Shown piece by piece: positions 2,321 to 38,870 of a DNA stretch of 64,000 bases; the stretch's first letter is position 1, and each line of letters opens with the position of its first letter. The stretch comes from Flavobacterium pallidum. Its GTDB lineage: Bacteria > Bacteroidota > Bacteroidia > Flavobacteriales > Flavobacteriaceae. The stretch covers positions 1,488,001 through 1,552,000 of the forward strand of contig NZ_CP029187.1 in NCBI RefSeq assembly GCF_003097535.1, given 5' to 3'. The notes under the pieces are model-generated. The model had not been told where the DNA came from, searched no databases, and was given only the letters and a program-made list of their open reading frames with translations. Position numbers and translations under genes: made by a program.

Positions 2321-2409
2321 ATTGCAACAGGGATGGGAGCGGCATCCTTTTTTAATCCCGTAGGGTTGAAAAAGATATAGCGGACAGCCCGGGCCGCAGG
2401 CGTTGCCCA
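2321..2409 (-). repeat. Dispersed hairpin repeat, copy A
   Basis: One of four intergenic copies of an element of roughly 70-90 bp. On the plus strand it reads GGGAGCGGCATCC, then a hairpin arm (2347-2359), a short loop, the other arm (2363-2374), and AGCGGACAGCCCGGG. The arms form about 12 pairs, two or three of them G-T. The flanks match the other copies, but the stem sequence differs from them. It sits between divergently transcribed purH and the ABC permease gene. A reading frame on the minus strand here is a by-product of the repeat. Confidence 0.75.
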
Positions 2410-10858: not shown

Positions 10859-10940
10859 GGGAGCTATTCCCGCTTTCGGCTGTATCTTCCCGCCGCTAAA
10901 GAAGCGGCAGGAAGGATGCCGCCTTAATCGGGGCTAAAAA
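10859..10940 (+). repeat. Dispersed hairpin repeat, copy B
   Basis: Same element as the copy at 2321-2409 but inverted relative to it. It reads TTTCGGCTGTATCTT, a GC-rich hairpin (CTTCCCGCCGCT with AGCGGCAGGAAG, one mismatch), then GGATGCCGCCTTAATC. It lies in the 280-base gap between divergent pdhB and etfB. Nothing else recognisable was seen in that gap apart from the pdhB promoter. Confidence 0.75.
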
Positions 10941-11805: not shown

Positions 11806-11890
11806 TGCGTTAGGGATTGCAGCGGCATCCTTTTGCGGAGTTTACGAAGCAAAAGATAGAGCGGAAAGCCCGGGCCGAAGGCAACGCCCA
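11806..11890 (-). repeat. Dispersed hairpin repeat, copy C (inside the etfBA operon)
   Basis: Plus strand reads GGGATTGCAGCGGCATCC, hairpin CTTTTGC / GCAAAAG, then AGAGCGGAAAGCCCGGGCC. Same orientation as the copy at 2321. It fills most of the etfB-etfA gap, so it is likely to be transcribed within that mRNA. Confidence 0.75.
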
Positions 11891-35554: not shown

Positions 35555-36805
35555 TTACAATCCGAAAACTGATTTTACTTTGTCAACGAAATCCAGTTTT
35601 TCCCAGGTGAATAATTCGACCGTTAATGATTTAGTCTCGCCTGTCGGGCTTTTAAAAGTCTTGGTTACGGTTTCCGGTTTCCTTCCCATGTGGCCGTAAG
35701 CAGCTGTTTCGCTGTAAATCGGGTTTCTCAATTTCAGCCTTTGTTCGATAAAATAGGGACGCATGTCGAAAATGTCCTCGACTTTTTTAGCAATTTCACC
35801 ATCGCTCAGGCTTACTTTTGAAGTGCCATAAGTATTGATGTAAATACCCATTGGTTTGGCTACACCGATGGCATAGGAAACCTGTACCAGGATTTCATCT
35901 GCAATGCCGGCAGCAACGAGGTTTTTGGCGATATGCCTTGTAGCGTACGCTGCGCTGCGGTCAACTTTACTCGGGTCTTTTCCTGAAAATGCTCCACCAC
36001 CATGTGCGCCTTTGCCACCATAAGTATCTACGATGATCTTGCGGCCTGTCAAGCCGGTATCGCCATGTGGCCCGCCTATAACGAACTTGCCGGTCGGATT
36101 GATATGGTATTCGATTTTGTCGTTGAACAAATGCGCGTATTGTGGATATTTCCCGATAATCCTCGGGATAAGCAGTTCAATAATGTCTTTCTTGATTTTT
36201 GAAAGCATCAAAGCTTCCTCGTCAAAATCGTCGTGCTGCGTTGATATTACAATCGCGTCAATACGTGAAGGTTTATTATTGTCGTCGTATTCCAGCGTTA
36301 CCTGTGATTTTGCATCAGGCCGCAGGTAAGTGATTTCGGAATTTTCACGGCGCATTTCCGCCAGTTCCTGAAGTAATTTATGTGACAGGTCGAGTGCCAA
36401 TGGCATATAATCTGCAGTTTCATTGGTGGCATAACCAAACATCATCCCCTGGTCTCCGGCCCCTTGATCCTCTTTGTTTGCACGGTCAACACCCTGATTG
36501 ATATCTTGTGATTGCTCATGGATAGCAGATAAAACGCCGCAGGAATTGGCCTCGAACATATATTCACTCTTGGTGTATCCTATTTTCTTAATGACATCCC
36601 TGGCGATCTGCTGTACATCGAGATATGTTTTTGACTTTACTTCTCCGGCGAGGATTACCTGACCGGTTGTCACAAGTGTTTCACAGGCCACTTTTGAATC
36701 AGTGTCAAAAGCAAGGAAATTGTCAATTAAAGCGTCAGAAATCTGATCGGCAACTTTGTCGGGATGTCCTTCACTAACAGATTCCGAGGTGAACAAATAA
36801 GCCAT
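35555..36805 (-). CDS. metK: S-adenosylmethionine synthetase
   Basis: MetK makes SAM from methionine and ATP. The 416 residues are slightly longer than the E. coli enzyme (384). Signatures are [20 protein letters not shown] near the N-terminus, [10 protein letters not shown] (about 114-123), [20 protein letters not shown] and [19 protein letters not shown]. Upstream on the same strand are a promoter, a leader of about 130 bases and a SAM-II-like aptamer, so its own product probably feeds back on expression. Confidence 0.97.
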
Positions 36806-36844
36806 AAAAATTGATTTTTTTATTTAATTCCGGAGGGTCTTGTC

Positions 36845-36879
36845 GATTGCGCAGGCTAAAGAAGGGAACTTGCTTTAGC
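36845..36879 (-). promoter_or_regulatory. Putative expression platform of the metK riboswitch
   Basis: On the minus strand GCTAAAG (36873-36879), the 3' strand of the aptamer pseudoknot, is followed by CTTTAGC (36855-36861), its exact complement, and then by GCAATC (36845-36850), the exact complement of GATTGC (36896-36901) in the aptamer loop. The two pairings are nested, so a single alternative stem could dismantle the SAM-binding pseudoknot. There is no T-run after it, so control of translation initiation about 40 bases downstream is more likely than intrinsic termination. Confidence 0.55.
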
Positions 36880-36917
36880 ATTTTTTCATGAGGTTGCAAT
36901 CAGTCAAATTTCTCCTC
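36872..36917 (-). promoter_or_regulatory. SAM-II riboswitch aptamer upstream of metK
   Basis: Minus-strand text: P1 5' strand GAGG (36914-36917), AU-rich loop AGAAATTTGACTGATTGCAA, P1 3' strand CCTC (36890-36893), then ATGAAAAAAT and GCTAAAGC. The order ATTGCAA, P1 3' strand, A-rich linker, GCTAAA is that of the compact SAM-II pseudoknot as I remember it. The GATTGC in the loop can pair with GCTAAA to form the pseudoknot helix. Location before metK is consistent. Promoter and start codon bracket it correctly. Confidence 0.75.
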
Positions 36918-36935
36918 TTTTTTAATTTTCGCCTG

Positions 36936-36968
36936 CAAATGTATGAAACCGTTTCTTAAAATTTACAA
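36936..36968 (-). promoter_or_regulatory. Promoter of metK
   Basis: On the minus strand: TTG (36966-36968), 22 bases, TACATTTG (36936-36943). The -7 element is a full match and the spacing is a little long. Transcription would start just before the aptamer. Confidence 0.6.
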
Positions 36969-37043
36969 GGATTTGAAAATAAGTTTTTTTTATTTCAAAA
37001 AAGGATTACTTTTACCGTTCATTAAATCAATTAATTAAAAATT

Positions 37044-38564
37044 ATGAAAAAACTATTACTATTATTTGGGATTGCCCTGACTGGTGCCGGTGCTTTTGCA
37101 CAGGGTGCTTCGTGTGCGGCCGCCACTACAGTAACTTCGGGATCGACTTATGTTATGGCACCGATTGCTTCAGGTACGTATGTTAACGGATGTAATTCGG
37201 ATACTGCACCTAATGGAAAGTGGTATAAATTTACCGCTCCTTCAGGAGGTATGATTAAGGTTGATGCGACCCTTGCTGTGAACCCTGGTGGAACTACCGG
37301 AGTGGATACTGCAGTTCACGTATTTTCAGGAACTTGTGGAACGCTGGCCTGCGTGGCTTTTAATGATGATTCTGCTGCGGCTGATTACAGGTCTTTGATT
37401 GCAGATTTAGTGGTTACTGCAGGAACGACTTATTATATCGAATGGGATAACAGATGGCAAGATAACGTAGGATTTTCATGGCAGTTTACTTTTACGCCTG
37501 TAAGTTGTTTTGCACCAACAGGATTCACTTATGTACCTCCTGCACCTACAACAACTTCGGTTGCTTTGGGATGGACGGCTCCTGCGCAGGGATTACCTGA
37601 AGGATATCAATTTGAATGGGGTCCAATCGGATTCACTCAGGGAACAGGTACTTTGATATCAACTACTGACACAAGCGTTGTCTTGTCTACTTTGAGCCCG
37701 AATTCAGTTTATGACTTTTACATCAGGACTGACTGTGGATTGGGTGACTACAGCATTTGGGAAGGGCCTATCTCTTTCTCAACTGAGTTTGACGTTGCTT
37801 CCGTACCTTACAACACAAGTTTTGAAGAGGCTAATTTTGGTTTCGTAGGCTGGACACAGGATGCTCCTACGGGCTATGCAGGTCAGGCATGGAGGGTTTA
37901 TAATGCTGGTCCAAATACGCCATTGACTCAGGAAGGAGAGCGCTCTGCTTTGGTTTTTGCAGGTGCTGCAGCTGACGGAAATAATGATGTATGGTTGCTT
38001 TCAAGAGGACTTAACCTTGCTGCCAATTCACCGGTAACAGTTACTTATTATATAAGAAACTATTTGGCAACTGGAAGTACAGGTTCAACAACATATGAAT
38101 TAAAAGCAGGTACAACACAGGATGTTGCAGGAATGACTATTCCAATCGCTGCTGAGACTGTAACAGACGTAGCTTTTGCACAGAAGACTTTTAACTTCAC
38201 GCCAACTACAGCTGGAACTTATTTCTTAGGTTTCCACTCTACAAATGTTGTAAATGCAGGTACACAAGCTACTTTCCTTGACAACGTGACAGTTAGTCAG
38301 GTATTGGGTACTGAAGATGTTTTTGCATCGCAATTCGCAGTATATCCAAACCCTGCGACTAGCACTGTAAACATCAGCAACACTACTGATGCTTTGATTA
38401 CCAATGTTAAAGTTACGGACTTGAAAGGACGCACAGTGAAAAACAACAACTTTGTGGCTTCTTCCAATATTCAAATCAATACCTCAGATTTGTCTTCAGG
38501 TGTTTACATGCTGAACATCACTTCTGATAAAGGTACTGCTGTAAAGAAAATCGTGAAAAAATAA
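37044..38564 (+). CDS. Secreted protein with fibronectin type III region and T9SS sorting domain
   Basis: A 506-residue T9SS cargo protein. It has a signal peptide (to about GAFAQ, residue 20), a beta-sandwich resembling Bacteroidetes pre-peptidase/choice-of-anchor domains (about 22-150), a fibronectin type III-like domain (about 153-250: ALGWTAPAQGLPEGYQFEWG), a second sandwich (about 255-415: VPYNTSFEEANFGFVGW), and a type A C-terminal sorting domain (about 430-506: FAVYPNPATSTVNI ending GTAVKKIVKK). It carries no catalytic motif that I can see. It is followed by a strong terminator. Confidence 0.88.
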   Translation: MKKLLLLFGIALTGAGAFAQGASCAAATTVTSGSTYVMAPIASGTYVNGCNSDTAPNGKWYKFTAPSGGMIKVDATLAVNPGGTTGVDTAVHVFSGTCGTLACVAFNDDSAAADYRSLIADLVVTAGTTYYIEWDNRWQDNVGFSWQFTFTPVSCFAPTGFTYVPPAPTTTSVALGWTAPAQGLPEGYQFEWGPIGFTQGTGTLISTTDTSVVLSTLSPNSVYDFYIRTDCGLGDYSIWEGPISFSTEFDVASVPYNTSFEEANFGFVGWTQDAPTGYAGQAWRVYNAGPNTPLTQEGERSALVFAGAAADGNNDVWLLSRGLNLAANSPVTVTYYIRNYLATGSTGSTTYELKAGTTQDVAGMTIPIAAETVTDVAFAQKTFNFTPTTAGTYFLGFHSTNVVNAGTQATFLDNVTVSQVLGTEDVFASQFAVYPNPATSTVNISNTTDALITNVKVTDLKGRTVKNNNFVASSNIQINTSDLSSGVYMLNITSDKGTAVKKIVKK

Positions 38565-38686: not shown

Positions 38687-38708
38687 CAGCGTTCATTACT
38701 TTATTGAA

Positions 38709-38808
38709 AGTTATCACGAAAGGCAGAGGGATTAGACCCGTTGAAGCCTTAGCAACCCTTTACCTATAAAGAAGGTGCTACATTCTACCGGTTTCCGGAT
38801 AGATAACA
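38709..38808 (+). promoter_or_regulatory. SAM-I (S-box) riboswitch upstream of metH
   Basis: P1 is GTTATC (38710-38715) with GATAAC (38802-38807). Between them are the conserved S-box strings GGCAGAGGGATTAGACCCG, TTGAAGCCTTAGCAACC, GGTGCTACATTCTACC and GGATAGATAAC in the correct order, forming P2-P4 and the kink-turn/pseudoknot region. The metH start is about 62 bases downstream. No GC-rich terminator follows. An AU-only hairpin (ATAAAT / ATTTAT) ends just before the ATG, so control may be at translation. Confidence 0.9.
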
Positions 38809-38870
38809 ACATAAATACTTTATTGTATTTTCTGCTTTCCTGATGACATTCATAAATATAAATTTATTGT

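Follow-up and report, generated by a model that had tools for sequence, protein, structure and literature searches.

The leader of the SAM synthetase gene metK in Flavobacterium pallidum is, by its sequence, a SAM-II riboswitch aptamer of a known class, with predicted binding of SAM. SAM-II riboswitches are small pseudoknots and have been studied well. In our main reading, to which we assign a probability of about 0.7, the metK mRNA would begin with this riboswitch and the linker between aptamer and gene would carry an anti-aptamer strand, in competition with the SAM-bound pseudoknot. More precisely, three consecutive linker segments would pair, in nested order, with both strands of the pseudoknot and with part of the 5' side of P1. 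Without SAM, the linker would fold back on the aptamer and remove its strands, presumably the ON state; with SAM, the pseudoknot would close and the linker would be freed, presumably the OFF state. The anti-aptamer fold excludes the SAM-bound fold because both use the same strands. For Flavobacterium itself we infer both the control by SAM and the output.

The window (the whole 64,000-nt stretch that was analysed) was searched with covariance models. RF01726 matched the metK leader over the full model with 67.5 bits against a gathering score of 44 (E 1.4e-12 in a search of 1201 bases), so that the fit to the SAM-II aptamer claimed in a preliminary description of this DNA, which had also suggested the model search, is borne out. 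The other SAM-II model, RF00521 (SAM_alpha), gave no row at E up to 1 in positions 36300-37500 of the window and none genome-wide, and control genomes were also without a match to it. The gene context is that of a SAM-II riboswitch, with the aptamer about 60 nt ahead of metK, and in a pattern search 232 of 246 fetched loci showed an aptamer core with metK after it. Of 140 genomes sampled from the genus, 135 carried SAM-II (116/116 of those with completeness of 90% or more and contamination of 5% or less), as did 270 of 395 genomes of the order and 45 of 296 genomes sampled across the phylum, genus and order members among them. The encoded MetK is 89-90% identical to Flavobacterium records (F. 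hibisci, F. notoginsengisoli, Flavobacterium sp.), and the first row of its matches is titled Pedobacter polysacchareus (90%). One or two extra hairpins occur in the aptamer loop of L112, L114-L140 and other genus leaders (the 'long loop' form), between the 3' strand of P1 and the A-rich stretch; the window leader is without them.

Positions of the leader features are collected in the table. The linker measures 66 nt from the end of GCTAAAGC to the metK start codon. Upstream, the promoter-like box TAnnTTTG, of a type described for F. psychrophilum (PMC9723704), occurs in the 60 nt ahead of the approximate start of P1 in 208 of 216 leaders (171 of these at 20-26 nt), compared with 7/216 for the next 60 nt. 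A box directly upstream of P1 places the aptamer probably at the very start of the RNA.

Table. Features of the metK leader (positions in the window)
Feature	Position	Strand	Basis or remark
Span of the finding in the preliminary description	36845-36917	-	Exact on checking
Promoter-like box TACATTTG (TAnnTTTG)	36936..36943	-	Sequence; RNA start would be a few bases downstream, before P1
SAM-II aptamer RF01726 (P1 GAGG/CCTC plus pseudoknot)	36865..36923	-	cmscan, 67.5 bits, full model 1-60
GAGGAGAAATTTG	36917..36905	-	Exact position check
P1 5' strand GAGG	36914..36917	-	Sequence
GGAG, portion of P1 5' side paired in the alternative fold	36912-36915	-	Sequence, fold
GATTGC, pseudoknot 5' strand (as assigned in the preliminary description)	36896..36901	-	Sequence
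AACCTC	36895..36890	-	Exact position check
P1 3' strand CCTC	36890..36893	-	RF01726 match, sequence
GCTAAAGC, pseudoknot 3' strand (as assigned in the preliminary description)	36872..36879	-	Sequence
Putative anti-aptamer strand 1, CTTTAGC, exact complement of GCTAAAG	36855..36861	-	Sequence, fold, genus-conserved block, clade G/A matching
Putative anti-aptamer strand 2, GCAATC, exact complement of GATTGC	36845..36850	-	Sequence, fold, genus alignment
Putative anti-aptamer strand 3, CAAGACCCTCC	36832..36842	-	Fold; lineage-specific linker complementarity to aptamer 5' strand
A-U hairpin AUAAAAA/UUUUUAU, including AU of the start codon	36804..36823	-	Fold prediction, both states
metK, SAM synthetase, 416 aa, start codon 36805	35555..36805	-	Open reading frame

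The linker of the window carries CTTTAGC and GCAATC as exact, nested complements of GCTAAAG and GATTGC, as had been described and as a check of the exact positions confirms. A third, imperfect complement had been missed: in the predicted fold, CAAG and CTCC of CAAGACCCTCC pair with UUUG (36908-36905) and GGAG, respectively, at the 5' side of P1. The expectation by chance was estimated from 20,000 dinucleotide shuffles of the 66-nt linker, among which CTTTAGC appeared in 148, GCAATC in 369 and both in order in none; a motif pair tolerant of G-U pairing appeared in order in 16. Folded by minimum energy, 36920..36825 forms the nested anti-aptamer hairpin, which joins all three complements at -19.8 kcal/mol, a modest excess over shuffles (z -1.67; 12 of 200 equally good).

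Conservation was assessed in the genus leaders, that is, the fetched portion of the genus SAM-II matches. Both motifs (YTTTAG then GYART) are present in 90 of 125 distinct leaders, where 0.9 were expected, and the other 35 lack both motifs in order by the pattern used. The two observations on which the preliminary description had made its proposal depend, a model match and complements kept in relatives, are thus both found. An alignment was built from 43 of the 65 listed leaders without the extra loop (67 before removal of near-duplicates), and in it the two complement blocks stand out as the chief stretches of linker with almost no variation. Among its 559 pair cells, 95.2% form standard pairs, compared with 33 to 50% when the strands are slid by one to three columns; the 95.2% is biased upward and is an upper figure, since the 22 omitted leaders include some without the GCAAT strand, and 90/125 is the unselected figure. 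Departures from Watson-Crick pairing comprise 46 wobble and 27 unpaired cells. This alignment contains no two-sided pair change: the aptamer side hardly varies inside the genus, which leaves covariation with the pseudoknot strands invisible there. RNAalifold on 43 genus leaders missed the alternative fold, giving 3 pairs at -1.11 kcal/mol. Two further features of genus linkers were seen. The stretch CTCGCTTAATT recurs after the GCAAT block in one subgroup (leaders such as L117-L134), beyond what pairing with the aptamer needs, and a second small hairpin lies shortly upstream of the metK start in L043 (e.g., GATGCTGAACTAAATTCAGCATAAAA), L049, L064, L066, L069, L074 and L082.

The analysis was extended to the order, using 217 leaders that remained from the 246 loci after removal of 14 without core and metK, 8 that failed the pseudoknot pattern and 7 duplicates; f5, f7, f8 and f11 below are tool labels for other families of the order. 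Aptamer and linker form a predicted duplex of -20.9 kcal/mol, compared with -13.9 kcal/mol for shuffled linkers (mean z -2.57; p 0.05 reached singly in 143/217), and 24.5 aptamer-linker pairs are expected in the free ensemble against 12.6 for shuffles. Linkers match their own aptamers: the own-partner contrast over 95 distinct aptamer 5' strands is -6.28 kcal/mol, compared with -0.95 (sd 0.38) for shuffled linkers and 0.04 (sd 0.51, lowest -1.76) over 300 permutations, and it amounts to -1.57 inside the genus against 0.07 (sd 0.64). Between closest disjoint leader pairs (n=88), the own partner is favoured in 64 and opposed in 19 (sign p 7e-7), with 53 for and 18 against when the metK distance is below 0.25 (n=76). 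The matching is visible at a single base. Aptamers with GCTAAAG, ending in G, go with linker CTTTAG in 90 leaders, TTTTAG in 8 and neither in 60, and those with GCTAAAA, ending in A, with CTTTAG in 2, TTTTAG in 23 and neither in 32 (2 leaders have other forms). The register of the complement also varies by lineage: Flavobacterium linkers target both pseudoknot strands; 10 of 20 leaders from other genera of its family hold a sequence such as GTCAAATC (L141, L148) that is complementary to GATTTGA(C); 12 of 13 leaders of f11 carry GCCAAAT or GCCAAGT against GATTTGGC; and in some others (L012, L014) the complement covers P1 itself. A set of 80 named metK records, with possible overlap in species with the 217 leaders, includes 43 with a SAM-II-like core by pattern; their mean z is -1.74, and 23/43 are below -1.64. 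The linker is thus complementary to the aptamer and the complementarity is kept by covariation, in agreement with the covariation that the preliminary description had proposed to look for; it is found between clades, and inside the genus there is conservation only. We regard this lineage-specific matching as good evidence of selection on the linker for pairing with the aptamer. That the linker carries an anti-aptamer strand is, as judged from these comparisons, well supported. A SAM sensor encoded in the leader together with a complementary stretch kept in many relatives suggests a choice between two folds in which SAM would tip the balance.

How the released linker would be read appears to differ between families. 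Opening costs of the start-codon region (-14..+6) were predicted by folding, with the aptamer left out (the SAM-bound, sealed state) or present (free). Over the 217 leaders, the sealed minus free cost is 1.78 kcal/mol compared with 0.41 for shuffles, and comparison of opening energies by clade reveals that the effect is clade-bound. On average, sealed opening energies exceed those of shuffles in f5 (7.92 against 6.20 kcal/mol), f7 (8.95 against 6.20) and f8 (11.08 against 6.31), with p 0.05 reached singly in 6/25, 6/18 and 3/4 leaders, respectively. In the same three families the complementarity of the linker peaks at -20..+10 (mean z -1.32, -1.46 and -1.49), with secondary signals at +30..+60 in f5 (z -1.02) and at +120..+150 in f8 (-0.81). 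Disjoint pairs for linker and start region count 51 for and 36 against over all leaders (n=108), including 7/1 in f7 (n=8), 4/3 in f5 (n=11) and 4/2 in f11 (n=6). By eye, L193 and L196, from one genus of f7, form the helices AUCGCAA/UUGCGAU and GCGCAA/UUGCGC beside the start codon. In these predictions, the linker of f5, f7 and f8 tends to mask the start-codon region once the aptamer is sealed; the freed linker would pair with that region and translation would be blocked.

For Flavobacterium, such a masking step is not visible. The start region of the window costs 2.85 (sealed) and 2.74 (free) kcal/mol to open, which is below shuffles. The A-U hairpin over the start codon is predicted in both states and is therefore no switch by itself. 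For the genus as a whole, the sealed opening energy shows no mean excess (5.53 against 5.59 kcal/mol for shuffles), and the sealed minus free difference is 0.85 against 0.42, with p 0.05 in 16 of 125 leaders. Other genera of the family show a small excess (5.90 against 5.49) and a difference of 1.92 against 0.36. Linker z at -20..+10 is +0.40 in Flavobacterium and +0.38 in these genera, for which disjoint pairs stand at 3 for and 5 against (n=9). Opening energy, contrasts, disjoint pairs, segment contrasts and positional z together give weak mixed signals for the genus, and start-region masking was set aside there. Two other partners for the linker were tried and rejected: pairing of the freed linker with metK codons is too weak (genus z -0.66 at +30..+60), and pairing of the CTTTAG strand with codon 2 was judged from counts that ignore relatedness (GCT with YTTTAGC in 49/59 and with YTTTAGT in 22/49).

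The preliminary description had pictured a simple switch with neither a Shine-Dalgarno site nor a terminator. Both absences hold: Bacteroidetes lack Shine-Dalgarno sites (PMC6847099), and no terminator-like site with a loop of 3-8 nt was found in the linker and metK start of the 217 leaders (2.0 expected from shuffles) or in positions 36600-37050 of the window, so that an intrinsic terminator was rejected as the output for loops of this size. A complete simple switch is not supported, since access to the start codon in the window folding is alike in both states. The output in Flavobacterium would most likely work without an intrinsic terminator. We give about even odds to an effect on ribosome loading that reaches beyond local folding; action of Rho on the freed C- and U-rich, G-poor linker is a lesser possibility, and RNA decay a smaller one still.

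The strongest alternative is a classical translational switch everywhere, in which the freed linker masks the start in Flavobacterium too and the energy model underestimates A-U-rich helices. Among 80 genus leaders, some do have a perfect helix of the GCAAT strand with the start region (11 bp in L118; 9 bp in L035, L052, L072, L092, L132 and L134), the linker/start-region contrast of the genus is -1.22 against 0.01 (sd 0.25) for permutations and -0.01 (sd 0.26) for shuffles, and segment contrasts are -0.58 and -0.48 against controls of 0.07 and 0.78. However, disjoint pairs in the genus are evenly split (23 for, 23 against, n=61), and the lack of excess opening energy, the positive positional z and the absence of any such signal in the window render this alternative doubtful. 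Rather unlikely, in our estimate, is a scheme for the Flavobacteriaceae as a whole in which Rho or a nuclease, and not the ribosome, reads the freed linker. The genus has neither a terminator-like site (loops of 3-8 nt) nor a clear masking helix, as this scheme would have it, and its linker strand is C- and U-rich in sequence, a composition that follows from its being the complement of a G-rich aptamer strand.

A free-state hairpin GCTAAAG/CTTTAGC, closed by GATTGC/GCAATC and followed in many relatives by a U-rich tract, could instead be an intrinsic terminator, with SAM turning metK on. A five-T run does come soon after GCAAT or GTAAT in 68 of 125 genus linkers. We consider this terminator very improbable, given the empty scan for terminator-like sites (loops of 3-8 nt), a window without a U tract after GCAATC, a U tract that doubles as the complement of GGAAAAAU and, in L090, a complement of the leader's own aptamer in place of the U tract; furthermore, SAM switching on a SAM synthetase would be backwards logic. 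Leftovers of an inverted duplication, or chance, would agree with the modest z of the window fold and the RNAalifold result, but are scarcely credible beside the empty shuffle count for the ordered pair, its retention in the genus, the excess of wobble over unpaired cells in the 43 selected leaders and the lineage-specific matching between clades.

The aptamer belongs to what is already known. The 'SAM-II long loops' of Bacteroidetes (RF01726; Weinberg 2010, PMC2864571) share both aptamer model and phylum with the metK leader, and the available text of that article names the aptamer alone, with reference to Additional File 1, and does not describe a downstream anti-aptamer strand. With proteobacterial SAM-II (RF00521) the leader shares a pseudoknot SAM sensor near the mRNA start; published effectors there are an intrinsic terminator (in many, as for metZ) or a Shine-Dalgarno site inside the aptamer (metA), and the S. 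meliloti metA and metZ leaders have predicted alternative folds too (PMC1273637, PMC2258182, PMC9373788). The metK leader differs by its 66-nt linker and by the absence of a terminator-like site (loops of 3-8 nt). The logic different from the proteobacterial leaders that the preliminary description had seen is therefore upheld for the effector, with the proteobacterial side taken from published descriptions, and not for the competing strand, because a strand that competes with an aptamer helix is ordinary riboswitch logic. Pairing of aptamer sequences with the expression platform in the ligand-free state has been described for riboswitches (PMC2258182) that share this competition between aptamer helix and platform; unlike in those, the metK strand covers, nested, part of the 5' side of P1 and both pseudoknot strands. 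New, as far as we can see, are the extent of the anti-aptamer strand and its different wiring between families. The literature searched, without supplements, yielded no description of an anti-aptamer platform for SAM-II and none of the way in which a Bacteroidetes SAM-II acts on its gene; the parts of PMC12121620 and PMC7366714 available to us hold nothing on SAM-II.

These comparisons suggest that related families, in a phylum that does without Shine-Dalgarno sites, have connected one and the same aptamer to different readouts. Tentatively, and at well below even odds, we propose that in Flavobacterium and its family a conserved anti-aptamer strand of SAM-II would govern metK, its release being read neither by an intrinsic terminator nor by start-codon masking, and that other families would have wired the strand into a mask of the start codon. 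If true, the expression platform would act through an output of a third type: Rho, a nuclease or a distant effect on ribosome loading. The anti-aptamer strand as such gives Bacteroidetes SAM-II a concrete, testable platform, one seen singly, at the threshold given above, in two-thirds of the sampled leaders.

Other RNA motifs were noted in the window. A SAM-I riboswitch (RF00162, 77.6 bits) lies at 38708-38809 (+), 2 kb from the SAM-II leader and upstream of metH-like genes (named by eye) that start from 38871. SAM-I and SAM-II occur together in 119 of 140 sampled genus genomes by hand count; the available text of a 2007 article found no species with both (PMC2258182). The window also holds three copies of Flavo-1 (RF01705), a motif without known function, at 10862-10939 (-), 2322-2398 (+) and 11813-11872 (+).
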